A stretch of DNA of 64,000 nucleotides from Obelidium mucronatum (Eukaryota; Chytridiomycota; Chytridiomycetes; Chytridiales; Chytriomycetaceae), in assembly GCA_025765595.1 (NCBI GenBank), contig JAIVFH010000075.1, forward strand, positions 111,497-175,496, in the 5' to 3' direction. Shown one piece after another: positions 27,521 through 62,460 of this stretch. The notes below the pieces were generated by a model. It saw only the letters and a list, made by a program, of their open reading frames with translations. It was not told the DNA's origin and made no database searches. Every line of letters starts with the position of its first letter. Within the stretch, counting starts at the first letter, position 1. A program made the translations under genes and the position numbers.

Positions 27521-27531
27521 GGTTAGGGTTA
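27521..27531 (+). repeat. Short telomeric repeat at LINE tail, copy 1
   Basis: GGTTAGGGTTA directly followed by the poly(T) of the LINE. Confidence 0.7.
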
Positions 27532-27668
27532 TTTTTTTTTTTTTTTTTAATGTTAAAGTTTATTGCCTCCGGTAACCCAGGAGGATAACAACCAAAGATG
27601 TAAGTTAAGGAAGAAGAAGAAGTAGAAGAAAAGTTTAAAGAAAAAGTCGATAAGAAAATAAAGTCAAC

Positions 27669-29696
27669 TTAAGAAATTTCGCCAAGAAAATAGAGTCGAG
27701 CATACGCCTCCGGTAGTTTGTTGGTAGCAATGAGCCGAGGTACTTGTGAATCGGCAGGGAAGTTTCGAGCCAGGTGGTGTCGAACAAGTTTTTGATGTTG
27801 GTCGAGAGAGAGAGTAGAATCCCGCAGAACGTTGGCCATACTGTAGGGTGGGTTGAAGATAATAGCTTTCGAAGAGAATCCATCGAGCTCAGCCTGTTTA
27901 GTGAGTAAGTTTTTGAAGTGGTTGAAGATAGCAGTTTTGATGTCAGAGTCGACAGGTCCTTTGCGGTAAGTAGAAGAAATGGATTTGATGGTTTTGTTGC
28001 TGCTGAGAGCTGAGTGAAGTTTGCAGTTGTCAGCAGGAATAAGTTGTGGCATCTTGGAAGCCATTCGACAGGTAATGAAGTCAGCCCGGTCCAAGAAGCT
28101 AGGAAGAAACAGAAGACGACGGATAGCAGAAGACTGAAGTGGAACTGGTGGTTGCAGTGGCCTGAAGATCCATTGGCAGATTTGATTGGTAAGACCAGAA
28201 CCAGCAGATCCAAGTGCAAGACGTTCTGATTGAGAGATGGTAGCGTTAGCGAGCGGTAAAGAATATTCCCACTTTGGACGGATAAGAGAGACAAAGATGG
28301 CCCGGCGAGACTGGGTGGTCCATGAAGAAGCATGTGGAGAAGCGGAGATGGTTTCAAAGGAGCGACGAGCGTGGTGGATTTTTCCCATGAAATAGTTGAA
28401 GAATTGAGGACCAGCAGTGGAGAGTGGCAGCCCAAGGTAGTGGTCTCGCTCTTTAGCAGGAATAGTGGTACCGTTGTAGATGATTGGTGGCCCAGTGTAG
28501 TTGATGGTGGTACACTTGGATGGAGAGAGCGTAAGTCGACTCGAGATACAGAAGTTGACAATAATGGCAAAAGCCTTTTGAAGAAGAAAATCAGAAAAAG
28601 TGCGAACAGAAATATCGTCGGCAAAGAAAGAAGAAGGTGTAGTGCCGCGAGTAGGAGGGAGTTCAGAAACTAATTCAAAAGCAAGAGGATCAATAAAAAT
28701 GTTGAACAAAATTGGAGAAAGAGAAGAGCCTTGTGGTAAACCACGCGAGCGAGTGATGATACGAGTATACTTGTCACCATAGAGAACCCTGGTGTAGGTA
28801 CGGTGGAAGAGTTGGTGGACAGAAGCCAAGATGTTGAGGTGGAATGGACAGTTGGACTGGAGAAGTTTAGACTTGAGGCGGTCGAGTAGAGCAGGGAGAA
28901 TATCAGTAGAGTGGACCAATTGTTTGAGTAGATTCCAGGAGATTCCATCAGGCCCAGACGCCTTATGGAGTGGATAAGCAGTGATTAGAGCTAAAATTTG
29001 GTCAGTGGTAGCAAAGACAAAATTTTCCGGTAGATCTGGCGGGTTGGCAGGGTCAATGAGTGGAGGCGGCGACTGGTAAAGAGGGTCCATGGAGCGGTAG
29101 AGATTTCGAAAGGTACTTCTGGCTTCATCGAGTTGTTTTGGAGACGGAGAGAACCCATACTGGAGAGTACTTTTTGGACTGGAGGAAGACTTTGCCTGGC
29201 GAATAGCATCCAAGGTGGTAGTGGTTTTGGTTTTTGGGAGGGGGGAGTGGTGTGGAGGTAATGTTGCCTTCTTAGGGCCGTACAGCAGAGCTGCAAGCTG
29301 ACGCAGTTTGTCACTGATTTGGTTATACAAATCATCAATGACAGTTTGGGGAGGAAATTCAGATACAGAAAGTAAAGATATATTCGCAAAAATATTTTTA
29401 TGGAGTGGTAAACGAGTGAGTTTTGGGAGGCGATGATAATTAAAACGAACGAGATGTTCAGGGTTAAAAGCTAAAGGGGATTGTAAAATAGTTTTGGGAG
29501 AGGATGGATGCATAGAAGCAAAATAAGATTCAGAAGAAAGTGGCACAGTAGTACTGGATAACCCAGCTGAAGAAGAAAAAGATGGAGAGGCGGGTGAAGG
29601 AGCGGCACTAGAAGAAACGGCCAAGAAATTAGAAGAAGAAGAAACAAAAGATACAGAAGAACCTGAGACCAGTGGACCAGAAGGAGACTTAACCAT
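27669..29696 (-). CDS. LINE ORF2 reverse transcriptase, copy 1, internally deleted
   Basis: 675 residues, in frame from an ATG that overlaps the ORF1 stop. It retains RT motif 0 (KASGPDGISWNLLK), motif B (RGLPQGSSLSPILFN) and motif C (FFADDIS), but compared with copies 2 and 4 it lacks 114 residues in frame (342 bases), which correspond to residues 270-383 of the full ORF and include the motif A aspartate (DFYKAYDTV). The RT should be dead. The deletion junction reads ...DILPAL/LDRLKS... and lies at short shared sequence (gag(t/c)ag) on the DNA. N-terminal 240 residues are Ser/Pro-rich. Confidence 0.9.
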   Translation of the reverse strand: MVKSPSGPLVSGSSVSFVSSSSNFLAVSSSAAPSPASPSFSSSAGLSSTTVPLSSESYFASMHPSSPKTILQSPLAFNPEHLVRFNYHRLPKLTRLPLHKNIFANISLLSVSEFPPQTVIDDLYNQISDKLRQLAALLYGPKKATLPPHHSPLPKTKTTTTLDAIRQAKSSSSPKSTLQYGFSPSPKQLDEARSTFRNLYRSMDPLYQSPPPLIDPANPPDLPENFVFATTDQILALITAYPLHKASGPDGISWNLLKQLVHSTDILPALLDRLKSKLLQSNCPFHLNILASVHQLFHRTYTRVLYGDKYTRIITRSRGLPQGSSLSPILFNIFIDPLAFELVSELPPTRGTTPSSFFADDISVRTFSDFLLQKAFAIIVNFCISSRLTLSPSKCTTINYTGPPIIYNGTTIPAKERDHYLGLPLSTAGPQFFNYFMGKIHHARRSFETISASPHASSWTTQSRRAIFVSLIRPKWEYSLPLANATISQSERLALGSAGSGLTNQICQWIFRPLQPPVPLQSSAIRRLLFLPSFLDRADFITCRMASKMPQLIPADNCKLHSALSSNKTIKSISSTYRKGPVDSDIKTAIFNHFKNLLTKQAELDGFSSKAIIFNPPYSMANVLRDSTLSLDQHQKLVRHHLARNFPADSQVPRLIATNKLPEAYARLYFLGEIS

Positions 29697-31345
29697 CGAC
29701 TTGGGAAGGAGCTGAAGATTTCATGGCTCCGTCATCAACAAAAGTAGCACGACCTTTTCCCTTGGGAGATGGACCAGGAGGAGCTTGCTTAGAGTTTTCT
29801 TCAGCAATGAGAGCTCTCATTGCTTCAGACTGGGTGTGTTTCTCATACAAGTGTTCGGCCCAGCCAGCAAAGAAGCCTTGGACCCGAACATAAGGAGAAG
29901 ACTCAGCAATCTTGTAGACCCTCTTATAGTTCCATAGCAGTTGCTTTGCAGATACAGAGTCCTTGTCCATTTGAAAGTTTTCCAAGACCTTAAAACCCAG
30001 CTTAGTAAGTTTCTGAGCAATGTACCCGGCAAAAGTAATGTTGACAGTGAGCTCCATAGTAGCAACCCCGACAGATGAGAAGTTGTAGATTTCCCTAACA
30101 GGTACTTTCACCAACTCCAGTTTCTGCTTAAGCTGCGAATAAGGGATCTTTTTGAACCCAACAACATACAAGAGTGCAACATTGTTCTTGACCTCAACAT
30201 CGGAGAACCGGCGGTAGAATTCCATGTCTGGTTGCACTTGAGTACGCTTAAACTTGAGAGGAGACTGCTCAGGAACAGGAGCTCTGAGCTCAGCAAGCGC
30301 AGCACGGACCTCAGAATCGTGCTCTGAAGGTGGTTCCGAGATTGCATCAGCCCAAGACTTTCGAGCTGTAGACTGAGTCGTGGATTGGCGACCTGAAGAC
30401 GAGCCAGCTCTCGATTGCAAATACAGAGAGCGAGTTTCCTCAAGCTCATCTGAGAGCTTCTTGAGCTTGGCATTGAAATCGGAACGAATATCGACAATCT
30501 CTCTGTCCTTGAAGGCAAGCTCGGCTTGGAATTGGTCTTCCATCGCAGCTGTCTTGCGCTCAAACTTTTCTTCAAGGGCAGCCATCATTGATACTTGAAA
30601 TTGCTTCATGATTGCTTGAATGTCTTCAAGCGTCGCTGGAGGTCCCGAAGGAGGAATAGCCGAGTTCGGCTGGGTCGCGAACTCATGTGGGGGGTCATAA
30701 TGACCAAAGCCCGAGTTCGACTGAGGCCGAATAGCATCCAGCTTGGCGTCACGAGCACCTTGTTAGTGAGTCGGCTGTTGACTAGAAGCGGCCGCGACTG
30801 CGTCGCGAGCGACGCGTTGCTGTTTTTCGACAGAAGAGAAGATGCCGTCACGAGCGGCAACACGGGGGGACTGCTCCGGGGAAGCGCCAGCGGCAAAGGC
30901 GGCGACTGTTGCGGGGGCGGCGGCGACGACGGTGTCCGTTGTTTCTAAACGGCGAGGGGGCTCAGAGTGACTGGCCCCGCCATTCGAGTGTTGACGATTA
31001 AGCTTGAATCTGGCGTCACGAGCGCCCAAGCGTTGGTTTACGAAGCGATCGGCATCGACGGCGACAGTGGATGCGGCTGCTGCTGTTGCGGCTGCGGCGT
31101 AGGTAGGTGGTAGGTGTTTGACGAGCATTGACGACTTTGACAGGGGCGGCTGTGGACTCGATGGCGCCGTTGTCGTCGACTCCTCCGTCGTCCATGTTGA
31201 AGTTGACGTCCGAGTATTTGCTGCTCGCGTCGGTGTCGTCGGCGTCGTCGTTGTTTGTGGTGTTGATGTTGGTGTTGTCCAAGTTCTCCACCTTGGATGC
31301 ATCGACCGTACCAGCAGATCTCGACAAGTCGACCGCACCGCGCAT
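29689..31345 (-). pseudogene. LINE ORF1, copy 1, with frameshift and stop
   Basis: The intact C-terminal part is 306 residues (30609-29689): an N-terminal coiled-coil stretch rich in Glu/Lys/Leu (about 60 residues), a Ser/Thr linker, then an RRM-like fold candidate (VALLYVVGFKKIPYSQLKQK onward) and a basic tail. Upstream the same frame is open to 31338 but interrupted by TAA at 30765-30763, and the first part fits better in another frame from ATG 31345, the switch lying near 31,110. ORF1 proteins of LINEs bind the element RNA; the role is inferred from position and layout. A short motif GARDA recurs three times upstream (about 30,745, 30,850 as AARDG, 31,015). Confidence 0.65.
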
Positions 31346-31379
31346 GACTTTCGAGAGGGACGCGTTATTAGAGCTAGGG

Positions 31380-31822
31380 TTCTTTACTCATGGGGGAGGT
31401 TGGGGAGAGTTAGGGTTTCTCCGGAAATTTTTATGATATAAAAGTTGCCTACCGGGGGACTTGAACTCCTGGCCTGCACACCCCATGGATGTGCCTTACC
31501 AACTGAGCTAAGGTGATGTGTTTTATGCTGGCAAATACAAGGTGTAAGTGGAGACAATAATTCAAACTTTGCTGAAATTTTTTGTACAAAAACACATAAC
31601 TTCTATGAATTAGTCTTTTTAAACCTTACCTTGACCAAAAAAAAAATAATTCAGTTTTCTACTTTCTGTTTCAAAGTGAAAAACCTAAAAATCCAAGATG
31701 GAAGCGGGGATTGAACTGGCCCCCCACTGGTTCAAAAGCTAATGACACATCAGATGTGCCATAACTTCTATATTTTTTACAAGAAAAGCCAGTTTTATTA
31801 TATACAAAACCACAAGCCAAAT
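31380..31822 (-). repeat. tRNA-like module A, copy 2
   Basis: Starts with TTCTTTACTCATGGGGGAGG. Minus strand: A-box-like TAGCTCAGTTGGTAAGGCAC (about 31512-31493) and B-box-like segment around 31465, then a second B-box-like GTTCAATCCCC near 31710. Confidence 0.75.
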
Positions 31823-37734: not shown

Positions 37735-37765
37735 TTAGGGTCAGGGTTAGGGTTAGGGTTAGGGC
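37735..37765 (+). repeat. Telomeric TTAGGG tract
   Basis: TTAGGG-type repeat (TTAGGGTCAGGG, then three or four perfect repeats) directly followed by the LINE poly(T). Confidence 0.93.
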
Positions 37766-37905
37766 TTTTTTTTTTTTTTTTTTTTTAATGTTAAAGTTTA
37801 TTGCCTCCGGTAACCCAAGAGGATAACAACCAAAGATGTAAGTTAAAGAAGAAGAAGAAGTAGAAGAAAAGTTAAAGAAAAAGTTGATAAGAAAATAAAG
37901 TCAAC

Positions 37906-40272
37906 TTAAGAAATTTCGCCAAGAAAATAGAGTCGAGCATACGCCTCCGGTAGTTTGTTGGTAGCAATGAGCCGAGGTACTTGTGAATCGGCAGGGAAGT
38001 TTCGAGCCAGGTGGTGTCGAACAAGTTTTTGATGTTGGTCGAGAGAGAGAGTAGAATCCCGCAGAACGTTGGCCATACTGTAGGGTGGGTTGAATTTAAT
38101 AGCTTTTGAAGAGAATCCATCGAGCTCAGCCTGTTTAGTGAGTAAGTTTTTGAAGTGGTTGAAGATAGCAGTTTTGATGTCAGAGTCGACAGGTCCTTTG
38201 CGGTAAGTAGAAGAAATGGATTTGATGGTTTTGTTGCTGCTGAGGGCTGAGTGAAGTTTGCAGTTGTCAGCAGGAATAAGTTGTGGCATCTTGGAAGCCA
38301 TTCGACAGGTAATGAAGTCAGCCCGGTCCAAGAAGCTTGGGAGAAATAGAAGACGACGGATAGCAGAAGACTGAAGTGGAACTGGTGGTTGCAGTGGCTT
38401 GAAGATCCATTGGCAGATTTGATTGGTAAGACCAGACCCAGCAGAGCCAAGTGCAAGACGTTCTGATTGAGAGATGGTAGCGTTAGCGAGCGGTAAAGAA
38501 TATTCCCACTTTGGACGGATAAGAGAGACAAAGATGGCCCGGCGAGACTGGGTGGTCCATGAAGAAGCATGTGGAGAAGCGGAGATGGTTTCAAAGGAGC
38601 GACGAGCTTGGTGGATTTTTCCCATGAAATAGTTGAAGAATTGAGGACCAGCAGTGGAGAGTGGCAGCCCAAGGTAGCGGTCTCGCTCTTTAGCAGGAAT
38701 AGTGGTACCGTTGTAGATGAGTGGTGGCCCAGTGTAGTTGATGGTGGTACACTTGGATGGAGAGAGCGTAAGTCGACTCGAGATACAGAAGTTGACAATA
38801 ATGGCAAAAGCCTTTTGAAGAAGAAAATCAGAAAAGGTGCGAACAGAAATATCGTCGGCAAAGAAAGAAGAAGGTGTAGTGCCGCGAGTAGGAGGGAGTT
38901 CAGAAACTAATTCAAAAGCAAGAGGATCAATAAAAATGTTGAACAAAATTGGAGAAAGAGAAGAGCCTTGTGGTAAACCACGCGAGCGGGTGATGATACA
39001 AGTATACTTGTCACCATAGAGAACCCTGGTGTAGGTACGGTGGAAGAGTTGGTGGACAGAAGCCAAGATGTTGAGGTGGAATGGACAGTTGGACTGGAGA
39101 AGTTTAGACTTGAGGCGGTCGAGTAGAATTGGAATGTCAACAGTGTCGTAAGCCTTGTAGAAATCAGTGAGTAGAGTGCGAGTATCCTTGGAAGCAGTGT
39201 TGGCAGCCCAGGCTAAGTTGGAAGAGGTGGAACGACCTGGTTGGAAACCTTGTTGTGTAAAATGGACAGTAGTAAAACGACGGAGATAAACATGGAGACA
39301 CTTTTCGTAGAGCAGACGGAGACAGTTGCCGACCCCGAGCGGTCGGAAGTCAAGGAGAGTTGGGTGGAGCGGTGGAGTAGAGGACTTGGGAATGAGGATG
39401 GTGTTGAAGGCCCTCCATTGTTCAGGAATGATACCATGGGAGAAGCAGACTTGAAAGAGACTGGACAGAGCAGGGAGAATATCGGTAGAGTGGACCAATT
39501 GTTTGAGCAGATTCCAAGAGATTCCATCAGGCCCCGACGCCTTCTGAAGTGGGTAAGCAGTGATTAGAGCTAGAAGTTGGTCAGTGGTAGCAAAGACAAA
39601 GTTTTCCGGTAGATCTGGCGGGTTGGCGGGGTCAATGAGTGGAGGCGGCGACTGGTAAAGAGGGTCCATGGAGCGGTAGAGATTTCGAAAAGTACTTCTG
39701 GCTTCATCGAGTTGTTTTGGAGACGGAGAGAACCCATACTGGAGAGTACTTTTTGGACTGGAGGAAGACTTTGCCTGGCGAATAGCATCCAAGGTGGTAG
39801 TGGTTTTAGTTTTTGGGAGGGGGGAGTGGTGTGGAGGTAATGTTGCCTTCTTAGGGCCGTACAGCAGAGCTGCAAGCTGACGCAGTTTGTCACTGATTTG
39901 GTTATACAAATCATCAATGACAGTTTGGGGAGGAAATTCAGATACAGAAAGTAAAGATATATTCGCAAAAATATTTTTATGGAGTGGTAAACGAGTGAGT
40001 TTTGGGAGGCGATGATAATTAAAACGAACGAGATGTTCAGGGTTAAAAGCTAAAGGGGATTGTAAAATAGTTTTGGGAGAGGATGGATGCATAGAAGCAA
40101 AATAAGATTCAGAAGAAAGTGGCACAGTAGTACTGGATAACCCAGCTGAAGAAGAAAAAGATGGAGAGGCGGGTGAAGGAGCGGCACTAGAAGAAACGGC
40201 CAAGAAATTAGAAGAAGAAACAAAAGATACAGAAGAACCTGAGACCAGTGGACCAGAAGGAGACTTAACCAT
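37906..40272 (-). CDS. LINE ORF2 reverse transcriptase, copy 2, intact
   Basis: 788 residues from the ATG at 40272, which overlaps the ORF1 stop in ATGGTTAA; the frame is open 37 codons further upstream. RT motifs in order: motif 0 GPDGI (247-251), motif 1/2 region LDFRPLGVGN (308-316), motif A D370-FYKAYD, motif B RGLPQGSSLSP (431-441), motif C FADD (471-474), then the YLGLPLS thumb region. Residues 1-200 are Ser/Pro-rich and hold no apurinic-endonuclease motifs. The 250 C-terminal residues show no CCHC knuckle, no PD-D/E-type restriction-like endonuclease pattern and no RNase H. It should copy element RNA into DNA at a primer end; clade not assigned. Confidence 0.92.
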   Translation of the reverse strand: MVKSPSGPLVSGSSVSFVSSSNFLAVSSSAAPSPASPSFSSSAGLSSTTVPLSSESYFASMHPSSPKTILQSPLAFNPEHLVRFNYHRLPKLTRLPLHKNIFANISLLSVSEFPPQTVIDDLYNQISDKLRQLAALLYGPKKATLPPHHSPLPKTKTTTTLDAIRQAKSSSSPKSTLQYGFSPSPKQLDEARSTFRNLYRSMDPLYQSPPPLIDPANPPDLPENFVFATTDQLLALITAYPLQKASGPDGISWNLLKQLVHSTDILPALSSLFQVCFSHGIIPEQWRAFNTILIPKSSTPPLHPTLLDFRPLGVGNCLRLLYEKCLHVYLRRFTTVHFTQQGFQPGRSTSSNLAWAANTASKDTRTLLTDFYKAYDTVDIPILLDRLKSKLLQSNCPFHLNILASVHQLFHRTYTRVLYGDKYTCIITRSRGLPQGSSLSPILFNIFIDPLAFELVSELPPTRGTTPSSFFADDISVRTFSDFLLQKAFAIIVNFCISSRLTLSPSKCTTINYTGPPLIYNGTTIPAKERDRYLGLPLSTAGPQFFNYFMGKIHQARRSFETISASPHASSWTTQSRRAIFVSLIRPKWEYSLPLANATISQSERLALGSAGSGLTNQICQWIFKPLQPPVPLQSSAIRRLLFLPSFLDRADFITCRMASKMPQLIPADNCKLHSALSSNKTIKSISSTYRKGPVDSDIKTAIFNHFKNLLTKQAELDGFSSKAIKFNPPYSMANVLRDSTLSLDQHQKLVRHHLARNFPADSQVPRLIATNKLPEAYARLYFLGEIS

Positions 40273-40747
40273 CGACTTGGGAAGGAGCTGAAGATTCCAT
40301 GGCTCCGTCATCGACAAAAGTAGCACGACCTTTTCCTTTGGGAGATGGACCAGGAGGAGCTTGCCTAGAGTTTTCTTCAGCAATGAGAGCTCTCATTGCT
40401 TCAGACTGTGTGTGTTTCTCGTACAAGTGGTCGGCCCAGCCAGCAAAGAAGCCTTGGACCCGGACATAAGGAGAAGACTCAGCAATCTTGATAACCCTCT
40501 TGTAGTTCCAGAGCAGTTGCTTGGCAGATACAGAGTCCTTGTCCATTTGGAAGTTTTCCAGGACCTTAAACCCCAGTTTAGTAAGTTTCTGTGCGATGAA
40601 CCCGGCAAAGGTAATGTTGACAGTGAGCTCCATAGTAGCAGCCCCGACAGAGGAGAAGTTGTAGATTTCCCTAACAGGTACTTTCACCAACTCCAGTTTC
40701 TGCTTAAGCTGCGAATAAGGGATCTTTGTGAACCCAATCACATACAG
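40265..40747 (-). pseudogene. LINE ORF1 remnant, copy 2
   Basis: C-terminal 158-161 residues of ORF1 (RRM-like half and basic tail), cut at the element's 5' junction with module A. Coding region remains open but lacks its own start apart from the internal ATG at 40741. Confidence 0.85.
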
Positions 40748-40757
40748 GAGTGCAACG

Positions 40758-41198
40758 TTCTTTACTCATGGGGGAGGTTGGGGAGAGTTAGGGTTTCTCC
40801 GGAAATTTTTATGATATAAAAGTTGCCTACTGGGGGACTTGAACCCCTGGCCTGCACACCGCATGGATGTGCCTTACCAACTGAGCTATGGTGATGTGTG
40901 TTTTTGCTGGCAAATACAAGGTGTAAGTGGAGACAATAATTCAAACTTTGCTGAAATTTTTTGAACAAAAACACATAACTTCTATGAATTAATCTTTTTA
41001 AACCTTACCTTGACCAAAAAAAAAAATAATTCAGTTTTCTACTTTAAGTTTCAAAGAGAAAAACCTGAAAATCCAAGATAGAAGCGGGGATTGAACTGGC
41101 CACCCACTGGTTCAAAAGCAAATGACACACCAGATATGCCATAACTTCTACATTTTTCACAAGAAAAGCCAGTTTTATTATATACAAAACCACAAGCC
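40758..41198 (-). repeat. tRNA-like module A, copy 3
   Basis: As earlier copies; minus-strand TAGCTCAGTTGGTAAGGCAC and GGGGTTCAAGTCCCCC are both well preserved here (about 40886-40837). Confidence 0.8.
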
Positions 41199-44943: not shown

Positions 44944-44974
44944 TTAGGGTCAGGGTTAGGGTTAGGGTTAGGGC
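44944..44974 (+). repeat. Telomeric TTAGGG tract
   Basis: Same 31-base tract as at 37735, again joined to LINE poly(T). Confidence 0.93.
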
Positions 44975-45115
44975 TTTTTTTTTTTTTTTTTTTTTTAATG
45001 TTAAAGTTTATTGCCTCCGGTAACCCAAGAGGATAACAACCAAAGATGTAAGTTAAAGAAGAAGAAGAAGTAGAAGAAAAGTTAAAGAAAAAGTCGATAA
45101 GAAAATAAAGTCAAC

Positions 45116-47477
45116 TTAAGAAATTTCGCCAAGAAAATAGAGTCGAGCATACGCCTCCGGTAGTTTGTTGGTAGCAATGAGCCGAGGTACTTGTGAATCG
45201 GCAGGGAAGTTTCGAGCCAGGTGGTGTCGAACAAGTTTTTGATGTTGGTCGAGAGAGAGAGTAGAATCCCGCAGAACGTTGGCCATACTGTAGGGTGGGT
45301 TGAATTTAATAGCTTTTGAAGAGAATCCATCGAGCTCAGCCTGTTTAGTGAGTAAGTTTTTGAAGTGGTTGAAGATAGCAGTTTTGATGTCAGAGTCGAC
45401 AGGTCCTTTGCGGTAAGTAGAAGAAATGGATTTGATGGTTTTGTTGCTGCTGAGGGCTGAGTGAAGTTTGCAGTTGTCAGCAGGAATAAGTTGTGGCATC
45501 TTGGAAGCCATTCGACAGGTAATGAAGTCAGCCCGGTCCAAGAAGCTTGGGAGAAATAGAAGACGACGGATAGCAGAAGACTGAAGTGGAACTGGTGGTT
45601 GCAGTGGCTTGAAGATCCATTGGCAGATTTGATTGGTAAGACCAGACCCAGCAGAGCCAAGTGCAAGACGTTCTGATTGAGAGATGGTAGCGTTAGCGAG
45701 CGGTAAAGAATATTCCCACTTTGGACGGATAAGAGAGACAAAGATGGCCCGGCGAGACTGGGTGGTCCATGAAGAAGCATGTGGAGAAGCGGAGATGGTT
45801 TCAAAGGAGCGACGAGCTTGGTGGATTTTTCCCATGAAATAGTTGAAGAATTGAGGACCAGCAGTGGAGAGTGGCAGCCCAAGGTAGCGGTCTCGCTCTT
45901 TAGCAGGAATAGTGGTACCGTTGTAGATGAGTGGTGGCCCAGTGTAGTTGATGGTGGTACACTTGGATGGAGAGAGCGTAAGTCGACTCGAGATACAGAA
46001 GTTGACAATAATGGCAAAAGCCTTTTGAAGAAGAAAATCAGAAAAGGTGCGAACAGAAATATCGTCGGCAAAGAAAGAAGAAGGTGTAGTGCCGCGAGTA
46101 GGAGGGAGTTCAGAAACTAATTCAAAAGCAAGAGGATCAATAAAAATGTTGAACAAAATTGGAGAAAGAGAAGAGCCTTGTGGTAAACCACGCGAGCGGG
46201 TGATGATACAAGTATACTTGTCACCATAGAGAACCCTGGTGTAGGTACGGTGGAAGAGTTGGTGGACAGAAGCCAAGATGTTGAGGTGGAATGGACAGTT
46301 GGACTGGAGAAGTTTAGACTTGAGGCGGTCGAGTAGAATTGGAATGTCAAACAGTGTCGTAAGCCTTGTAGAAATCAGTGAGTAGAGTGCGAGTATCCTT
46401 GGAAGCAGTGTTGGCAGCCCAGGCTAAGTTGGAAGAGGTGGAACGACCTGGTTGGAAACCTTGTTGTGTAAAATGGACAGTAGTAAAACGACGGAGATAA
46501 ACATGGAGACACTTTTCGTAGAGCAGACGGAGACAGTTGCCGACCCCGAGCGGTCGGAAGTCAAGGAGAGTTGGGTGGAGCGGTGGAGTAGAGGACTTGG
46601 GAATGAGGATGGTGTTGAAGGCCCTCCATTGTTCAGGAATGATACCATGGGAGAAGCAGACTTGAAAGAGACTGGACAGAGCAGGGAGAATATCGGTAGA
46701 GTGGACCATTGTTTGAGCGATTCCAAGAGATTCCATCAGGCCCGACGCCTTCTGAAGTGGGGAAGCAGTGATTAGAGCTAGAAGTTGGTCAGTGGTAGCA
46801 AAGACAAAGTTTTCCGGTAGATCTGGCGGGTGGCGGGGTCAATGAGTGGAGGCGGCGACTGTACAGAGGGTCCATGGAGCGGGTAGAGAGATTTCGAAAA
46901 GTACTTCTGGCTTCATCGAGTTGTTTTTGAGACGGAGAGAACCATACTGGAGAGTACTTTTTGGACTGGAGGAAGACTTTGCCTGGCGAATAGCATCCAA
47001 GGTGGTAGTGGTTTTAGTTTTTGGGAGGGGGGAGTGGTGTGGAGGTAATGTTGCCTTCTTAGGGCCGTACAGCAGAGCTGCAAGCTGACGCAGTTTGTCA
47101 CTGATTTGGTTATACAAATCATCAATGACAGTTTGGGGAGGAAATTCAGATACAGAAAGTAAAGATATATTCGCAAAAATATTTTATGGAGTGGTAACGA
47201 GTGAGTTTTGGGAGGCGATGATAATTAAACGAACGAGATGTTCAGGGTTAAAAGCTAAAGGGGATTGTAAAATAGTTTTGGGAGAGGATGGATGCATAGA
47301 AGCAAAATAAGATTCAGAAGAAAGTGGCACAGTAGTACTGGATAACCCAGCTGAAGAAGAAAAAGATGGAGAGGCGGGTGAAGGAGCGGCACTAGAAGAA
47401 ACGGCCAAGAAATTAGAAGAAGAAACAAAAGATACAGAAGAACCTGAGACCAGTGGACCAGAAGGAGACTTAACCAT
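45116..47477 (-). pseudogene. LINE ORF2 reverse transcriptase, copy 3, frameshifted
   Basis: The C-terminal 386 residues (46276-45116, including motifs B and C) are open. The N-terminal part is split into pieces at about 46736-46347, 47117-46839 and 47477-47184 by single-base changes, for example an extra A near 46350 and lost bases near 46,710, 46,735, 46,830, 47,185, 47,200 and 47,228. The density and single-base type suggest consensus error more than decay. Confidence 0.85.
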
Positions 47478-47952
47478 CGACTTGGGAAGGAGCTGAAGAT
47501 TCCATGGCTCCGTCATCGACAAAAGTAGCACGACCTTTTCCTTTGGGAGATGGACCAGGAGGAGCTTGCCTAGAGTTTTCTTCAGCAATGAGAGCTCTCA
47601 TTGCTTCAGACTGTGTGTGTTTCTCGTACAAGTGGTCGGCCCAGCCAGCAAAGAAGCCTTGGACCCGGACATAAGGAGAAGACTCAGCAATCTTGATAAC
47701 CCTCTTGTAGTTCCAGAGCAGTTGCTTGGCAGATACAGAGTCCTTGTCCATTTGGAAGTTTTCCAGGACCTTAAACCCCAGTTTAGTAAGTTTCTGTGCG
47801 ATGAACCCGGCAAAGGTAATGTTGACAGTGAGCTCCATAGTAGCAGCCCCGACAGAGGAGAAGTTGTAGATTTCCCTAACAGGTACTTTCACCAACTCCA
47901 GTTTCTGCTTAAGCTGCGAATAAGGGATCTTTGTGAACCCAATCACATACAG
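47470..47952 (-). pseudogene. LINE ORF1 remnant, copy 3
   Basis: Identical truncated ORF1 tail as in copy 2. Confidence 0.85.
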
Positions 47953-47962
47953 GAGTGCAACG

Positions 47963-48404
47963 TTCTTTACTCATGGGGGAGGTTGGGGAGAGTTAGGGTT
48001 TCTCCGGAAATTTTTATGATATAAAAGTTGCCTACTGGGGGACTTGAACCCCTGGCCTGCACACCGCATGGATGTGCCTTACCAACTGAGCTATGGTGAT
48101 GTGTGTTTTTGCTGGCAAATACAAGGTGTAAGTGGAGACAATAATTCAAACTTTGCTGAAATTTTTTGAACAAAAACACATAACTTCTATGAATTAATCT
48201 TTTTAAACCTTACCTTGACCAAAAAAAAAAATAATTCAGTTTTCTACTTTAAGTTTCAAAGAGAAAAACCTGAAAATCCAAGATAGAAGCGGGGATTGAA
48301 CTGGCCACCCACTGGTTCAAAAGCAAATGACACACCAGATATGCCATAACTTCTACATTTTTCACAAGAAAAGCCAGTTTTATTATATACAAAACCACAA
48401 GCCA
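47963..48404 (-). repeat. tRNA-like module A, copy 4
   Basis: Near-identical to the copy at 40758. Confidence 0.8.
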
Positions 48405-52176: not shown

Positions 52177-52207
52177 TTAGGGTCAGGGTTAGGGTTAGGG
52201 TTAGGGC
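52177..52207 (+). repeat. Telomeric TTAGGG tract
   Basis: Same 31-base tract, followed by LINE poly(T). Confidence 0.93.
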
Positions 52208-52347
52208 TTTTTTTTTTTTTTTTTTTTTAATGTTAAAGTTTATTGCCTCCGGTAACCCAAGAGGATAACAACCAAAGATGTAAGTTAAAGAAGAAGAAGA
52301 AGTAGAAGAAAAGTTAAAGAAAAAGTCGATAAGAAAATAAAGTCAAC

Positions 52348-54714
52348 TTAAGAAATTTCGCCAAGAAAATAGAGTCGAGCATACGCCTCCGGTAGTTTGT
52401 TGGTAGCAATGAGCCGAGGTACTTGTGAATCGGCAGGGAAGTTTCGAGCCAGGTGGTGTCGAACAAGTTTTTGATGTTGGTCGAGAGAGAGAGTAGAATC
52501 CCGCAGAACGTTGGCCATACTGTAGGGTGGGTTGAATTTAATAGCTTTTGAAGAGAATCCATCGAGCTCAGCCTGTTTAGTGAGTAAGTTTTTGAAGTGG
52601 TTGAAGATAGCAGTTTTGATGTCAGAGTCGACAGGTCCTTTGCGGTAAGTAGAAGAAATGGATTTGATGGTTTTGTTGCTGCTGAGGGCTGAGTGAAGTT
52701 TGCAGTTGTCAGCAGGAATAAGTTGTGGCATCTTGGAAGCCATTCGACAGGTAATGAAGTCAGCCCGGTCCAAGAAGCTTGGGAGAAATAGAAGACGACG
52801 GATAGCAGAAGACTGAAGTGGAACTGGTGGTTGCAGTGGCTTGAAGATCCATTGGCAGATTTGATTGGTAAGACCAGACCCAGCAGAGCCAAGTGCAAGA
52901 CGTTCTGATTGAGAGATGGTAGCGTTAGCGAGCGGTAAAGAATATTCCCACTTTGGACGGATAAGAGAGACAAAGATGGCCCGGCGAGACTGGGTGGTCC
53001 ATGAAGAAGCATGTGGAGAAGCGGAGATGGTTTCAAAGGAGCGACGAGCTTGGTGGATTTTTCCCATGAAATAGTTGAAGAATTGAGGACCAGCAGTGGA
53101 GAGTGGCAGCCCAAGGTAGCGGTCTCGCTCTTTAGCAGGAATAGTGGTACCGTTGTAGATGAGTGGTGGCCCAGTGTAGTTGATGGTGGTACACTTGGAT
53201 GGAGAGAGCGTAAGTCGACTCGAGATACAGAAGTTGACAATAATGGCAAAAGCCTTTTGAAGAAGAAAATCAGAAAAGGTGCGAACAGAAATATCGTCGG
53301 CAAAGAAAGAAGAAGGTGTAGTGCCGCGAGTAGGAGGGAGTTCAGAAACTAATTCAAAAGCAAGAGGATCAATAAAAATGTTGAACAAAATTGGAGAAAG
53401 AGAAGAGCCTTGTGGTAAACCACGCGAGCGGGTGATGATACAAGTATACTTGTCACCATAGAGAACCCTGGTGTAGGTACGGTGGAAGAGTTGGTGGACA
53501 GAAGCCAAGATGTTGAGGTGGAATGGACAGTTGGACTGGAGAAGTTTAGACTTGAGGCGGTCGAGTAGAATTGGAATGTCAACAGTGTCGTAAGCCTTGT
53601 AGAAATCAGTGAGTAGAGTGCGAGTATCCTTGGAAGCAGTGTTGGCAGCCCAGGCTAAGTTGGAAGAGGTGGAACGACCTGGTTGGAAACCTTGTTGTGT
53701 AAAATGGACAGTAGTAAAACGACGGAGATAAACATGGAGACACTTTTCGTAGAGCAGACGGAGACAGTTGCCGACCCCGAGCGGTCGGAAGTCAAGGAGA
53801 GTTGGGTGGAGCGGTGGAGTAGAGGACTTGGGAATGAGGATGGTGTTGAAGGCCCTCCATTGTTCAGGAATGATACCATGGGAGAAGCAGACTTGAAAGA
53901 GACTGGACAGAGCAGGGAGAATATCGGTAGAGTGGACCAATTGTTTGAGCAGATTCCAAGAGATTCCATCAGGCCCCGACGCCTTCTGAAGTGGGTAAGC
54001 AGTGATTAGAGCTAGAAGTTGGTCAGTGGTAGCAAAGACAAAGTTTTCCGGTAGATCTGGCGGGTTGGCGGGGTCAATGAGTGGAGGCGGCGACTGGTAA
54101 AGAGGGTCCATGGAGCGGTAGAGATTTCGAAAAGTACTTCTGGCTTCATCGAGTTGTTTTGGAGACGGAGAGAACCCATACTGGAGAGTACTTTTTGGAC
54201 TGGAGGAAGACTTTGCCTGGCGAATAGCATCCAAGGTGGTAGTGGTTTTAGTTTTTGGGAGGGGGGAGTGGTGTGGAGGTAATGTTGCCTTCTTAGGGCC
54301 GTACAGCAGAGCTGCAAGCTGACGCAGTTTGTCACTGATTTGGTTATACAAATCATCAATGACAGTTTGGGGAGGAAATTCAGATACAGAAAGTAAAGAT
54401 ATATTCGCAAAAATATTTTTATGGAGTGGTAAACGAGTGAGTTTTGGGAGGCGATGATAATTAAAACGAACGAGATGTTCAGGGTTAAAAGCTAAAGGGG
54501 ATTGTAAAATAGTTTTGGGAGAGGATGGATGCATAGAAGCAAAATAAGATTCAGAAGAAAGTGGCACAGTAGTACTGGATAACCCAGCTGAAGAAGAAAA
54601 AGATGGAGAGGCGGGTGAAGGAGCGGCACTAGAAGAAACGGCCAAGAAATTAGAAGAAGAAACAAAAGATACAGAAGAACCTGAGACCAGTGGACCAGAA
54701 GGAGACTTAACCAT
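52348..54714 (-). CDS. LINE ORF2 reverse transcriptase, copy 4, intact
   Basis: 788 residues, the same protein as copy 2 as far as I can compare, with motif A D370, motif B RGLPQGSSLSP and motif C FADD. Starts in the ATGGTTAA overlap with the ORF1 remnant. Confidence 0.92.
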   Translation of the reverse strand: MVKSPSGPLVSGSSVSFVSSSNFLAVSSSAAPSPASPSFSSSAGLSSTTVPLSSESYFASMHPSSPKTILQSPLAFNPEHLVRFNYHRLPKLTRLPLHKNIFANISLLSVSEFPPQTVIDDLYNQISDKLRQLAALLYGPKKATLPPHHSPLPKTKTTTTLDAIRQAKSSSSPKSTLQYGFSPSPKQLDEARSTFRNLYRSMDPLYQSPPPLIDPANPPDLPENFVFATTDQLLALITAYPLQKASGPDGISWNLLKQLVHSTDILPALSSLFQVCFSHGIIPEQWRAFNTILIPKSSTPPLHPTLLDFRPLGVGNCLRLLYEKCLHVYLRRFTTVHFTQQGFQPGRSTSSNLAWAANTASKDTRTLLTDFYKAYDTVDIPILLDRLKSKLLQSNCPFHLNILASVHQLFHRTYTRVLYGDKYTCIITRSRGLPQGSSLSPILFNIFIDPLAFELVSELPPTRGTTPSSFFADDISVRTFSDFLLQKAFAIIVNFCISSRLTLSPSKCTTINYTGPPLIYNGTTIPAKERDRYLGLPLSTAGPQFFNYFMGKIHQARRSFETISASPHASSWTTQSRRAIFVSLIRPKWEYSLPLANATISQSERLALGSAGSGLTNQICQWIFKPLQPPVPLQSSAIRRLLFLPSFLDRADFITCRMASKMPQLIPADNCKLHSALSSNKTIKSISSTYRKGPVDSDIKTAIFNHFKNLLTKQAELDGFSSKAIKFNPPYSMANVLRDSTLSLDQHQKLVRHHLARNFPADSQVPRLIATNKLPEAYARLYFLGEIS

Positions 54715-55189
54715 CGACTTGGGAAGGAGCTGAAGATTCCATGGCTCCGTCATCGACAAAAGTAGCACGACCTTTTCCTTTGGGAGATGGACCAGGAGGA
54801 GCTTGCCTAGAGTTTTCTTCAGCAATGAGAGCTCTCATTGCTTCAGACTGTGTGTGTTTCTCGTACAAGTGGTCGGCCCAGCCAGCAAAGAAGCCTTGGA
54901 CCCGGACATAAGGAGAAGACTCAGCAATCTTGATAACCCTCTTGTAGTTCCAGAGCAGTTGCTTGGCAGATACAGAGTCCTTGTCCATTTGGAAGTTTTC
55001 CAGGACCTTAAACCCCAGTTTAGTAAGTTTCTGTGCGATGAACCCGGCAAAGGTAATGTTGACAGTGAGCTCCATAGTAGCAGCCCCGACAGAGGAGAAG
55101 TTGTAGATTTCCCTAACAGGTACTTTCACCAACTCCAGTTTCTGCTTAAGCTGCGAATAAGGGATCTTTGTGAACCCAATCACATACAG
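54707..55189 (-). pseudogene. LINE ORF1 remnant, copy 4
   Basis: Same truncated ORF1 tail as in copy 2. Confidence 0.85.
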
Positions 55190-55199
55190 GAGTGCAACG

Positions 55200-55641
55200 T
55201 TCTTTACTCATGGGGGAGGTTGGGGAGAGTTAGGGTTTCTCCGGAAATTTTTATGATATAAAAGTTGCCTACTGGGGGACTTGAACCCCTGGCCTGCACA
55301 CCGCATGGATGTGCCTTACCAACTGAGCTATGGTGATGTGTGTTTTTGCTGGCAAATACAAGGTGTAAGTGGAGACAATAATTCAAACTTTGCTGAAATT
55401 TTTTGAACAAAAACACATAACTTCTATGAATTAATCTTTTTAAACCTTACCTTGACCAAAAAAAAAAATAATTCAGTTTTCTACTTTAAGTTTCAAAGAG
55501 AAAAACCTGAAAATCCAAGATAGAAGCGGGGATTGAACTGGCCACCCACTGGTTCAAAAGCAAATGACACACCAGATATGCCATAACTTCTACATTTTTC
55601 ACAAGAAAAGCCAGTTTTATTATATACAAAACCACAAGCCA
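55200..55641 (-). repeat. tRNA-like module A, copy 5
   Basis: Near-identical to the copy at 40758. Confidence 0.8.
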
Positions 55642-57437
55642 AATTGGGCTGCTTTGGAATTAGGCTGCTTTGGAATTGGGCTGCTTTGGAATTAGGCAGC
55701 CTAATTGGGCTGCTTTGGGGAATTGGGCTGGTTCGGAATATTAGGCTGCCTAATTGGGCTGGTTCGGAATATTAGGCAGCCTAATTGGGCTGGTTCGGAA
55801 TATTAGGCTGCCTAATTGGGCTGGTTCGGAATATTAGGCAGCCTAATTGGGCTGGTTCGGAATATTAGGCAGCCTAATTGGGCTGGTTCGGAATATTAGG
55901 CTGCCTAATTGGGCTGGTTCGGTGAATTGGGCTGGTTCGAAATATTAGGCAGCCTAATTGGGCTGGTTCGGTGAATTGGGCTGGTTCGGAATATTAGGCA
56001 GCCTGATTGGGCTGGGCTATGCTGGAAGATGTTACACAAGGGACCAATTTGAAAGTCCTTCAATCAGATTTTTCAAAATTTTTGACTTATGGCCCAATAA
56101 AGTTACATGAGCCTAAATTTGTATACCTATTGATGTTAAAATTATTGCTCTAAATTTTTCGGTTCTGCTGCAAGCAGTTTGCCTTGGAACATCAGTCAGT
56201 TGCAAAATTTTTTCTGTGAATTACGCTCGCCAAATTAGGTTACACGAGACACTCTATAATACTTAAGTAGTTGGTATTAGAACTTTTGATTTCCTCAAAA
56301 CGTTACACGAGCCACCAAAACATAAAAATTTCCAAGTTCTGCAAGTACTGCAAGCAAATTGCCTTGAAAAAACAATCAAGCCTATAAGTCTGCACAATTT
56401 AACTGGGAATTCCACTTGCCCAATGACGTTACACGAGAGTCTCTATGACAGTAAGTGGTTGGTATTACAATGTTTGATTTTGGCAGTGCAACAAAAACGT
56501 TACACGAGCCACCAAAACATAAAAATTTCCAAGTTCTGCAAGTACTGCAAGCAAATTGCCTTGAAAAAACAATCAAGCCTATAAGTCTGCACAATTTAAC
56601 TGGGAATTCCACTTGCCCAATGACGTTACACGAGAGTCTCTAAGGTCAGGGTTTAGGGTTAGAGACAGATTTAGGGTTAGGGTTAAGGTTAGGCTTAGGA
56701 TTAGGGTTAGGCTTAGGGTTAGGGCCAAAACATAAAAATTTCCAAGTTCTGCAAGTACTGCAAGCAAATTGCCTTGAAAAAACAATCAAGCCTATAAGTC
56801 TGCACAATTTAACTGGGAATTCCACTTGCCCAATGACGTTACACGAGAGTCTCTATGACAGTAAGTGGTTGGTATTACAATGTTTGATTTTGGCAGTGCA
56901 ACAAAAACGTTACACGAGCCTCCAAAACTTAAAAATTTCCAAGTTCTGCGAGTACTGCAAGCAAATTGCCTTGAAAAATAAATCAAGCCTATAAGTCTGC
57001 ACAATTTATGAAAAAACTGCAGTAGCCCAATTATGTTACACAAGACTCACTATGTGTACAGAGTAGTTCCCATAAGAGTTCACTGCACCCAAAAACATTA
57101 CAGAAGCCTACAAAAATTGAAAAATTTTTAGGTTGGCAAGAAGTGAGCAGCTTGCCTTGAAATGAGTTTGCACAATATTTCCAAGAAATGCACTAGCTCC
57201 AATTACGTTACACGCAACACAAGCCTCCAGAAGGGGGCTGCTTGGGGGAACTGGCCTGCTTGGAAAGTAGGCAGCCTAACTGGGCTTGTTTTCAGAATAT
57301 TAGGCTGCCTAATTGGGCTGGTTCGGAAAAATTGGGCTGCTTTGGGACATTGGGCTGGTTTGGAATACTAGGCAGCCTAATGGGCTGCTTTGGGGAATTG
57401 GGGCTGGTTCGGAATATTAGGCAGCCTAATTGGCTGG
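55642..57437. repeat. Sat1 - spacer 1 - Sat1 block, unit 3, interrupted by telomeric tract
   Basis: Sat1 55642-56019, spacer 1 56020-57234, Sat1 57235-57437. One 197-base repeat is interrupted: about 110 bases are replaced by a degenerate telomeric tract at 56642-56725. From about 57,070 onward many single-base indels are seen relative to the other units. Confidence 0.88.
56642..56725 (+). repeat. Internal degenerate telomeric tract
   Basis: AAGGTCAGGGTTTAGGGTTA and further TTAGGG variants inside spacer 1. Its first 70 bases are the same as the tract that starts at 63901. Confidence 0.9.
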
Positions 57438-59437: not shown

Positions 59438-59468
59438 TTAGGGTCAGGGTTAGGGTTAGGGTTAGGGC
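59438..59468 (+). repeat. Telomeric TTAGGG tract
   Basis: Same 31-base tract, followed by LINE poly(T). Confidence 0.93.
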
Positions 59469-59609
59469 TTTTTTTTTTTTTTTTTTTTTTAATGTTAAAG
59501 TTTATTGCCTCCGGTAACCCAAGAGGATAACAACCAAAGATGTAAGTTAAAGAAGAAGAAGAAGTAGAAGAAAAGTTAAAGAAAAAGTCGATAAGAAAAT
59601 AAAGTCAAC

Positions 59610-61975
59610 TTAAGAAATTTCGCCAAGAAAATAGAGTCGAGCATACGCCTCCGGTAGTTTGTTGGTAGCAATGAGCCGAGGTACTTGTGAATCGGCAGGG
59701 AAGTTTCGAGCCAGGTGGTGTCGAACAAGTTTTTGATGTTGGTCGAGAGAGAGAGTAGAATCCCGCAGAACGTTGGCCATACTGTAGGGTGGGTTGAATT
59801 TAATAGCTTTTGAAGAGAATCCATCGAGCTCAGCCTGTTTAGTGAGTAAGTTTTTGAAGTGGTTGAAGATAGCAGTTTTGATGTCAGAGTCGACAGGTCC
59901 TTTGCGGTAAGTAGAAGAAATGGATTTGATGGTTTTGTTGCTGCTGAGGGCTGAGTGAAGTTTGCAGTTGTCAGCAGGAATAAGTTGTGGCATCTTGGAA
60001 GCCATTCGACAGGTAATGAAGTCAGCCCGGTCCAAGAAGCTTGGGAGAAATAGAAGACGACGGATAGCAGAAGACTGAAGTGGAACTGGTGGTTGCAGTG
60101 GCTTGAAGATCCATTGGCAGATTTGATTGGTAAGACCAGACCCAGCAGAGCCAAGTGCAAGACGTTCTGATTGAGAGATGGTAGCGTTAGCGAGCGGTAA
60201 AGAATATTCCCACTTTGGACGGATAAGAGAGACAAAGATGGCCCGGCGAGACTGGGTGGTCCATGAAGAAGCATGTGGAGAAGCGGAGATGGTTTCAAAG
60301 GAGCGACGAGCTTGGTGGATTTTTCCCATGAAATAGTTGAAGAATTGAGGACCAGCAGTGGAGAGTGGCAGCCCAAGGTAGCGGTCTCGCTCTTTAGCAG
60401 GAATAGTGGTACCGTTGTAGATGAGTGGTGGCCCAGTGTAGTTGATGGTGGTACACTTGGATGGAGAGAGCGTAAGTCGACTCGAGATACAGAAGTTGAC
60501 AATAATGGCAAAAGCCTTTTGAAGAAGAAAATCAGAAAAGGTGCGAACAGAAATATCGTCGGCAAAGAAAGAAGAAGGTGTAGTGCCGCGAGTAGGAGGG
60601 AGTTCAGAAACTAATTCAAAAGCAAGAGGATCAATAAAAATGTTGAACAAAATTGGAGAAAGAGAAGAGCCTTGTGGTAAACCACGCGAGCGGGTGATGA
60701 TACAAGTATACTTGTCACCATAGAGAACCCTGGTGTAGGTACGGTGGAAGAGTTGGTGGACAGAAGCCAAGATGTTGAGGTGGAATGGACAGTTGGACTG
60801 GAGAAGTTTAGACTTGAGGCGGTCGAGTAGAATTGGAATGTCAACAGTGTCGTAAGCCTTGTAGAAATCAGTGAGTAGAGTGCGAGTATCCTTGGAAGCA
60901 GTGTTGGCAGCCCAGGCTAAGTTGGAAGAGGTGGAACGACCTGGTTGGAAACCTTGTTGTGTAAAATGGACAGTAGTAAAACGACGGAGATAAACATGGA
61001 GACACTTTTCGTAGAGCAGACGGAGACAGTTGCCGACCCCGAGCGGTCGGAAGTCAAGGAGAGTTGGGTGGAGCGGTGGAGTAGAGGACTTGGGAATGAG
61101 GATGGTGTTGAAGGCCCTCCATTGTTCAGGAATGATACCATGGGAGAAGCAGACTTGAAAGAGACTGGACAGAGCAGGGAGAATATCGGTAGAGTGGACC
61201 AATTGTTTGAGCAGATTCCAAGAGATTCCATCAGGCCCCGACGCCTTCTGAAGTGGGTAAGCAGTGATTAGAGCTAGAAGTTGGTCAGTGGTAGCAAAGA
61301 CAAAGTTTTCCGGTAGATCTGGCGGGTTGGCGGGGTCAATGAGTGGAGGCGGCGACTGGTAAAGAGGGTCCATGGAGCGGTAGAGATTTCGAAAGTACTT
61401 CTGGCTTCATCGAGTTGTTTTGGAGACGGAGAGAACCCATACTGGAGAGTACTTTTTGGACTGGAGGAAGACTTTGCCTGGCGAATAGCATCCAAGGTGG
61501 TAGTGGTTTTAGTTTTTGGGAGGGGGGAGTGGTGTGGAGGTAATGTTGCCTTCTTAGGGCCGTACAGCAGAGCTGCAAGCTGACGCAGTTTGTCACTGAT
61601 TTGGTTATACAAATCATCAATGACAGTTTGGGGAGGAAATTCAGATACAGAAAGTAAAGATATATTCGCAAAAATATTTTTATGGAGTGGTAAACGAGTG
61701 AGTTTTGGGAGGCGATGATAATTAAAACGAACGAGATGTTCAGGGTTAAAAGCTAAAGGGGATTGTAAAATAGTTTTGGGAGAGGATGGATGCATAGAAG
61801 CAAAATAAGATTCAGAAGAAAGTGGCACAGTAGTACTGGATAACCCAGCTGAAGAAGAAAAAGATGGAGAGGCGGGTGAAGGAGCGGCACTAGAAGAAAC
61901 GGCCAAGAAATTAGAAGAAGAAACAAAAGATACAGAAGAACCTGAGACCAGTGGACCAGAAGGAGACTTAACCAT
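59610..61975 (-). pseudogene. LINE ORF2 reverse transcriptase, copy 5, one frameshift
   Basis: The frame from ATG 61975 runs through the Ser/Pro-rich part and is thrown by a one-base loss near 61,391, where copies 2 and 4 have AAAA and this copy AAA. The remaining 587 residues (61373-59610) hold all RT motifs. A homopolymer slip in sequencing is as likely as a real mutation. Confidence 0.88.
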
Positions 61976-62450
61976 CGACTTGGGAAGGAGCTGAAGATTC
62001 CATGGCTCCGTCATCGACAAAAGTAGCACGACCTTTTCCTTTGGGAGATGGACCAGGAGGAGCTTGCCTAGAGTTTTCTTCAGCAATGAGAGCTCTCATT
62101 GCTTCAGACTGTGTGTGTTTCTCGTACAAGTGGTCGGCCCAGCCAGCAAAGAAGCCTTGGACCCGGACATAAGGAGAAGACTCAGCAATCTTGATAACCC
62201 TCTTGTAGTTCCAGAGCAGTTGCTTGGCAGATACAGAGTCCTTGTCCATTTGGAAGTTTTCCAGGACCTTAAACCCCAGTTTAGTAAGTTTCTGTGCGAT
62301 GAACCCGGCAAAGGTAATGTTGACAGTGAGCTCCATAGTAGCAGCCCCGACAGAGGAGAAGTTGTAGATTTCCCTAACAGGTACTTTCACCAACTCCAGT
62401 TTCTGCTTAAGCTGCGAATAAGGGATCTTTGTGAACCCAATCACATACAG
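61968..62450 (-). pseudogene. LINE ORF1 remnant, copy 5
   Basis: Same truncated ORF1 tail as in copy 2. Confidence 0.85.
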
Positions 62451-62460
62451 GAGTGCAACG

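Follow-up and report, generated by a model that had tools for sequence, protein, structure and literature searches.

At the right end of contig JAIVFH010000075.1 (hereafter C75; other contigs carry labels of the same kind) of the chytrid fungus Obelidium mucronatum lie five copies of a long interspersed nuclear element (LINE), that is, a non-long-terminal-repeat (non-LTR) retrotransposon, each joined at its poly(A) end to telomeric repeat. The contig is 175,496 bases long, and the stretch analysed, referred to here as the window (64,000 nucleotides, C75:111497-175496), is its right end, the two ending together. As the original prediction from this DNA had it, and as alignment within the window bears out, every one of the five copies lies on the minus strand; its five junctions are likewise exact, with poly(T) starting at 27532, 37766, 44975, 52208 and 59469 and a TTAGGG-type repeat before each (Table 1).

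The LINE copies of C75 and their surroundings

Only short telomeric stretches stand at these junctions, 12 bases long at copy 1 and, at each of copies 2-5, 30 bases with one extra C. Copies 2-5 belong to tandem units, each about 7.2 kb long, which a self-alignment of the window shows to be 97.7-99.9% identical across their long aligned pieces; as duplicates of one unit they are counted once, and this tandem duplication confirms the earlier view that the window contains two independent junctions, that of copy 1 and that of copies 2-5. The short interspersed nuclear element (SINE)-like repeat adjoining the LINE copies is here called SINE-A.

Table 1. Features of the LINE-bearing part of the window (window positions)
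Feature	Position	Strand	Remarks
Telomeric repeat GGGTTAGGGTTA	27520..27531	+	3' junction of copy 1, 12 bases
LINE copy 1	27532..31367	-	5'-truncated within ORF1; internal deletion in ORF2 RT region; poly(A) tail from 27532
Degenerate short telomeric stretch (TTAGAGCTAGGG)	31368..31379	+	Between copy 1 5' end and next SINE-like repeat
SINE-A	31380..31581	-	Tail facing LINE copy 1
Telomeric repeat + one C	37735..37765	+	3' junction of copy 2
LINE copy 2	37766..40757	-	5'-truncated, ending at SINE-A tail
ORF2 of copy 2	37906..40272	-	Open, 788 aa from first ATG; Pfam: RVT_1 only
SINE-A	40758..40960	-	Joined to truncated 5' end of copy 2
Telomeric repeat + one C	44944..44974	+	3' junction of copy 3
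LINE copy 3	44975..47962	-	Tandem-unit duplicate of copy 2
SINE-A	47963..48165	-	Joined to copy 3 5' end
Telomeric repeat + one C	52177..52207	+	3' junction of copy 4
LINE copy 4	52208..55199	-	Tandem-unit duplicate, ORF2 open
SINE-A	55200..55402	-	Joined to copy 4 5' end
Buried telomeric tract	56644..56724	+	Near copy of contig-end tract; repeat search and window self-alignment
Telomeric repeat + one C	59438..59468	+	3' junction of copy 5
LINE copy 5	59469..62460	-	Tandem-unit duplicate
SINE-A	62461..62664	-	Joined to copy 5 5' end
Telomeric tract, contig end	63903..64000	+	Repeat search; window end = contig end 175496
ORF, open reading frame; RT, reverse transcriptase; aa, amino acids.

The telomere repeat of O. 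mucronatum is TTAGGG: a genome search matched (TTAGGG)4 29 times on seven contigs, and among the contig ends inspected those of C7, C14 and C75 terminate in TTAGGG, C7 and C14 having been picked for their repeats. All 29 matches are on the forward contig strand and none on the reverse, which may be an assembly effect. Within the window, TTAGGGTTAGGG is matched 12 times; 100 shuffles gave a mean of 0.00. Together with its flank, the tract at the contig end aligns at 99.3% identity over 686 bases with one (56642-56724) buried in the 7.2-kb unit at 52177-59437, and the alignment gives the impression that a former telomere was copied or captured in the course of duplication. A tandem satellite with a period of 140/293 bases (17910-21049) separates gene-like DNA from the subtelomeric repeats, and a ribosomal protein L31 is matched at 8462-8911.

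Telomeric junctions and polarity across the genome

Junctions were collected by DNA search of the genome with the last 535 bases of the LINE, only the best candidates being scored, so that the counts are lower bounds. The 22 matches represent 19 independent loci after collapsing copies 2-5, with 18 independent 3' ends on 14 contigs (two each on C75, C129, C42 and C1; one each on C204, C25, C168, C109, C163, C18, C57, C496, C70 and C122). Twelve of these ends belong to the LINE proper, one to an old relative (C122, about 75% identical), two to stubs of about 30-45 bases (the C129 inner and C42 right joints) and three to elements on C57, C496 and C70 that have only the 3' end in common with the LINE. 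At all 18 the poly(A) runs into CCCTAA-type repeat; in the first 25 bases past it there are at least 8 perfect telomeric bases in 17 of the 18 and at least 9 in 13, C18 being the miss with 6. The same count of at least 8 is reached by 0.6% of 25-mers drawn at random from the fetched contig-end loci and by 0 of 200,000 from window 1-24000, a null by which chance was rejected as the cause of the joints. The junctions of C204, C163 and C57 escaped the junction pattern search and were taken from separately fetched sequence. A genome search with the ORF2 protein gave 36 matches, of which those of the same family all fell at known loci; the remainder (26-31% identity, elsewhere in the genome) are other elements.

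Phase was read on the G strand at the point where the repeat stops, with the proviso that after GGG a following TT is indistinguishable from poly(T). The repeat stops at GGG in C129 outer, C42 left, C42 right, C18 and C70, at a longer G run in C129 inner, C109 and C57, at TTA in C75 copy 1, C168 and C1 right, at CTA in C163 and at TAG in C204 and C496, with GGGC in C75 copies 2-5, GGAC in C25, GGA in C1 left and ATTC in C122. A fixed cut would be expected to give one phase, as in the fixed target register of SART/TRAS elements; several are seen among the 18 junctions, and there is thus no fixed insertion phase. The original prediction that 3' junctions genome-wide would lie mostly in TTAGGG repeat, in several phases and on several chromosomes, accordingly agrees with the 18 of 18 ends found on 14 contigs.

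The telomeric repeats might also be no target at all but part of the element's RNA, as read-through or as a templated tail, and a second LINE family of this genome, described below, does end in a constant GTTAGGGTTAGGG that may be such a tail. At the LINE, however, the phase, length and degenerate variants of the repeat after poly(A) vary by locus and the flanks beyond are unrelated, which makes this explanation very improbable. Proximal flanks (bases 61-460) were compared for 15 of the 18 ends, and beyond the tandem copies of the window the shared pieces were only 24-60 bases, except for the C129 pair, whose two joints share 255 flank bases because they are 145 bases apart and their flanks overlap.

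The 3' end faces away from the nearest contig end in 20 of the 22 matches and at 17 of the 19 independent loci; if orientation were random, the one-sided probability of at least 17 of 19 would be about 0.0004, although 'nearest end' says little for short contigs such as C384 and C163. By this contig-end proxy, the 17 loci are oriented as HeT-A/TART-type elements are, the 3' end pointing away from the chromosome end, and head-to-tail stacks of the kind known from those elements also occur. An origin without any targeting, in which insertions would occur everywhere and survive only in gene-poor subtelomeres, has in its favour that subtelomeres tolerate insertions and that, as the C75 tandem duplication illustrates, recombination also multiplies copies there. 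Survival explains neither the contact of 3' ends with telomeric repeat nor the polarity, however; pure survival was rejected on the latter, and we hold this explanation to be very improbable.

Coding capacity, 3' tail and associated elements

The LINE encodes an ORF1 of about 725-785 aa and an ORF2 of about 790 aa. ORF2 matches RVT_1 (Pfam, E 8.5e-22), as expected of a LINE-type RT, has L1 ORF2p and R2 as its closest solved structures and is under purifying selection in its RT; the poly(A) 3' end and the 5'-truncated copies are also those of a LINE. No Pfam endonuclease was found in ORF2 at E up to 10 or in ORF1 at E up to 1. An apurinic/apyrimidinic endonuclease (APE), as found in SART/TRAS, was thus not detected by a Pfam search whose positive control, the APE domain of the second LINE family, was recovered, and a restriction-enzyme-like endonuclease (REL) was neither found by Pfam nor visible in the predicted ORF2 model, whose C-terminal part is helical, there being no REL positive control and no comparison with MoTeR/FoTeR proteins. 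The alignment of the model with human L1 ORF2p starts at about residue 247, past the L1 endonuclease, and there is little space for an APE domain ahead of the RT; the Foldseek and VIA-align rows for it show no separate endonuclease, which by the tool's own note is no proof. A metagenome relative, P0001, also has no recognisable endonuclease and lies together with the LINE on a long branch of an RT tree of 53 rows, a tree that does not tell endonuclease loss from an endonuclease that was never present. Two further RT proteins, P0003 and P0009 (728 and 742 aa), form their own clade, and their precomputed Pfam domains include no endonuclease; they could be additional LINEs without an endonuclease, or fragments.

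These results bear on the first reading of the locus, namely that the element inserts site-specifically into double-stranded telomeric repeat through target-primed reverse transcription, as in SART/TRAS or MoTeR/FoTeR, with an endonuclease that is either an unrecognised domain or supplied in trans by another element. Such insertion would lead to the same location and polarity, since the 5' ends of FoTeR and MoTeR face the terminus in the available part of the source (PMC12857005), and the genome does harbour an APE-bearing LINE family with one TTAGGG register at 5 of 5 3' ends. The lack of a Pfam endonuclease in either ORF, the little room ahead of the RT and the helical C-terminal part in the ORF2 model, and the variable phase all speak against it, as does the absence of a long telomeric array from the inspected 140-300 bases upstream of the 5' ends. 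We have therefore demoted this reading on account of the endonuclease and phase results and now consider it unlikely.

The 3' core common to the LINE and its partners reads TGTTATCCTC[C/T]TGGGTTACCGGAGGCAATAAACTTTAACATT followed by poly(A), with few differences at several loci and most in C122, and the LINE RNA would be predicted to end in CAATAAACTTTAACATT followed by poly(A). Within the shared core lies AATAAA, the usual polyadenylation signal. A predicted 3' hairpin, CCTCY-TGGGTTACC-GGAGG, keeps six of its seven pairs in 16 of 16 sequences and the other in 15 of 16, but no pair is changed on both sides; the case for an RNA structure is therefore weak, and the GGGTTA in the loop may be chance. 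The C57 element (L047 1312-3140), whose 5' limit is approximate, has an ORF of 193 aa that over residues 70-189 shows 30% identity with the C-terminal part of ORF1 (E 4e-11); this ORF lies in two overlapping frames, and no RT is seen between the ORF1-like ORF and the LINE 3' end. The 3' stretch of this element recurs in C496 (L048), and C70 holds a short sequence, under about 200 bases long, that shares its 3' end with the LINE.

The second LINE family, with its APE domain (L051 C1:87300-95300, L052, L053, L041, L055-L059), has 3' ends of the form GAGAT[C/T]GTTAGGGTTAGGG in one register to TTAGGG in 5 of 5 cases, and 5' ends at which, in 2 of 2 cases, an A run and CTCTG come immediately after TTAGGG; to judge from these ends, it may have a fixed, SART/TRAS-like target or a templated telomeric tail. 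Elements at C42 (L037, 268000-277689) and L047 stand head-to-tail in the polarity of the LINE and have no recognisable endonuclease. From an RT motif we tentatively take the ORFs at C42 and C57 to be Penelope-like; they have only a weak RVT_1 match (E 0.0013) and no match in a search of PDB sequences. C42 also has an open frame with an ABC_membrane domain (L036 4274-5044, E 2.5e-7) about 0.5 kb before the telomeric repeat; by eye the gene (L036 4274-5680) continues up to the telomeric-type repeat, with the LINE after it. This joint looks like a broken and healed chromosome end, and if it is one the contig may be misjoined there.

The truncated 5' ends of the LINE lie at most 6 bases from the tail of a SINE-like repeat at 5 of the 19 loci, the neighbour being SINE-A at C75 copies 2-5, C25, C1 left and the C129 stub, and a second repeat, SINE-B, at C42 left. 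Two more loci have such a repeat within 30 bases, C1 right with SINE-B after a gap of 14 bases that by eye is still LINE-like, and C204, where about 26 bases that include an A run separate SINE-A from a near-full-length LINE copy; all seven LINE-SINE neighbour pairs have the same polarity. A short telomeric stretch separates the LINE from the SINE-like repeat at C75 copy 1 and C129 outer, a Penelope-like ORF adjoins at C42 right and C57, and C163 has GTCCCTAAC ahead of the LINE. There is other sequence at the 5' side in C109, C70, C122 and C384, and at C168, C18 and C496 the element is cut off where the contig stops. Layers are stacked in C129 (from the proximal side: LINE stub, SINE-A piece, TTAGGGTTAGGG, LINE) and in C1 left (SINE-A piece, TTAGGG-type repeat, LINE piece, SINE-A); such an order would be expected if elements and telomerase had alternated at the end. 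Forty SINE-A matches were scored among 47 candidates, and in 36 the tail points away from the nearest contig end, though these are not 40 independent cases because they include tandem copies on C75 and C31; 8 of 13 further SINE-A tails run by eye into CCCTAA-type repeat (L061, L063, L064, L066, L068, L069, L070 and L072). SINE-B has 38 matches in the genome. Both repeats contain tRNA-like letters, by eye only; for these repeats ARAGORN found 0 tRNAs in the window, and Rfam gave 0 families at gathering score in 7 sources.

Terminal addition as a candidate mechanism

Our current working hypothesis, to which we give a probability of roughly 0.8, is that the LINE, in which no endonuclease is recognisable, spreads in a HeT-A-like manner by terminal addition onto chromosome 3' ends. 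A short or uncapped telomere would expose the 3' end of its G-rich strand as a primer; from this TTAGGG 3' end the polyadenylated LINE RNA would be reverse-transcribed without a nick, presumably by the LINE's own RT, the cDNA growing outward; the cDNA, often incomplete at its 5' side, would become the new chromosome end, and telomerase or another retroelement RNA would then add on top. A TTAGGG primer and a poly(A) template would give the order TTAGGG, poly(T), LINE antisense, truncated 5' end and next layer, which is the order seen. The primer would then be the chromosome terminus itself, and the LINE would still be mobile. The original prediction had left open whether the element integrates into telomeric DNA or is primed by it; with no recognisable endonuclease and a variable phase, priming fits better than integration.

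A number of observations weigh against terminal addition. Two loci, C42:22683 and C122:8773, have the opposite orientation relative to the nearest contig end, the latter being an old copy with about 75% identity and a degenerate flank. The C384 match covers 116 bases from inside the LINE, with neither 3' end nor telomeric joint, and 5 of the 18 junctions belong to stubs or to other elements with the same tail. The inspected LINE-bearing contig ends other than C75 terminate in non-TTAGGG sequence, and the contig end is therefore only a proxy for the chromosome end. Nor can polarity separate terminal addition from site-specific insertion, since MoTeR/FoTeR have the same polarity in the part of the source available (PMC12857005). 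An endonuclease could come in trans, the second LINE family having one, and the direct LINE-SINE joints could also be explained by template jumping between RNAs.

HeT-A, TART and endonuclease-mutant L1 are described, in the available part of one source, as reverse-transcribing onto chromosome ends from a chromosome-end primer (PMC2881922). Terminal addition primed by the chromosome end would be what the LINE has in common with HeT-A, TART and TAHRE of Drosophila, and the ORF1-only element of C57 recalls HeT-A; the Obelidium host differs in keeping a telomerase domain (a Telomerase_RBD match above cut-off at C3:112353-112772; the stops in one match may mark an intron) and TTAGGG at some contig ends, and the LINE in that no endonuclease domain is found in it. 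TART and TAHRE carry such a domain, and the finer anatomy of the three Drosophila elements, with a proximal 3' end, 5' truncations and head-to-tail stacks, is like that of the Obelidium LINE. An endonuclease-mutant human L1, in work of Morrish from 2007, reportedly uses the mammalian telomere as a primer; that L1 is engineered, whereas the Obelidium LINE is a natural, constrained lineage. SART1 and TRAS1 of the silkworm are also non-LTR retrotransposons in telomeric repeat, but have an endonuclease that cuts the repeat in a fixed register. MoTeR1 and the FoTeRs share with the LINE a fungal host, location in telomeric repeat and a 5' end towards the terminus, but differ from its two ORFs, AATAAA/poly(A) end and lack of a recognisable endonuclease, having a REL endonuclease in a large ORF according to the available part of the source (PMC12857005). 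The comparison with SART/TRAS and MoTeR drawn in the original prediction thus survives for location and, with MoTeR/FoTeR, for polarity; it does not extend to mechanism, since the LINE shows neither a recognisable endonuclease nor a fixed insertion phase.

Endonuclease-deficient Penelope-like elements (Athena and fungal relatives) are thought, in the available part of the source, to be primed from exposed chromosome 3' ends and have telomeric repeats on their truncated 5' end (PMC3846280); they resemble the LINE in having no endonuclease and differ in RT class, and Penelope-like ORFs lie near the LINE tail at C42 and C57. Hebe of the rotifer Adineta vaga is another LINE with a subtelomeric location and a poly(A) tail, and its host genome contains telomeric Penelope-like elements, but it has an AP endonuclease and no 5' truncations in the part of the source available (PMC2861651). 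In open-licence literature, covered mostly at title and abstract level, we found neither a natural endonuclease-lacking LINE of this kind nor telomeric retroelements in chytrids, which is weak evidence of absence.

We are inclined, with less assurance than for the mechanism itself, to see in the Obelidium LINE a natural LINE clade without any endonuclease that lives solely by extension of chromosome 3' ends beside an intact telomerase, and that moves an ORF1-only partner and a small non-autonomous repeat by means of the shared 3' tail; such a clade would be a present-day equivalent of the 'pre-endo' retrotransposons that have been proposed to have extended free DNA ends. Terminal addition is known mainly from fruit flies and laboratory mutants, and the LINE, if our reading is true, is a natural example. 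A natural endonuclease-free LINE beside telomerase would make it testable which protein features suffice for end targeting, and would show how a LINE and telomerase share an end, so that retroelements as a second rescue of short telomeres could be tested. The layered stacks would then be an ordered record of past end shortening and healing.
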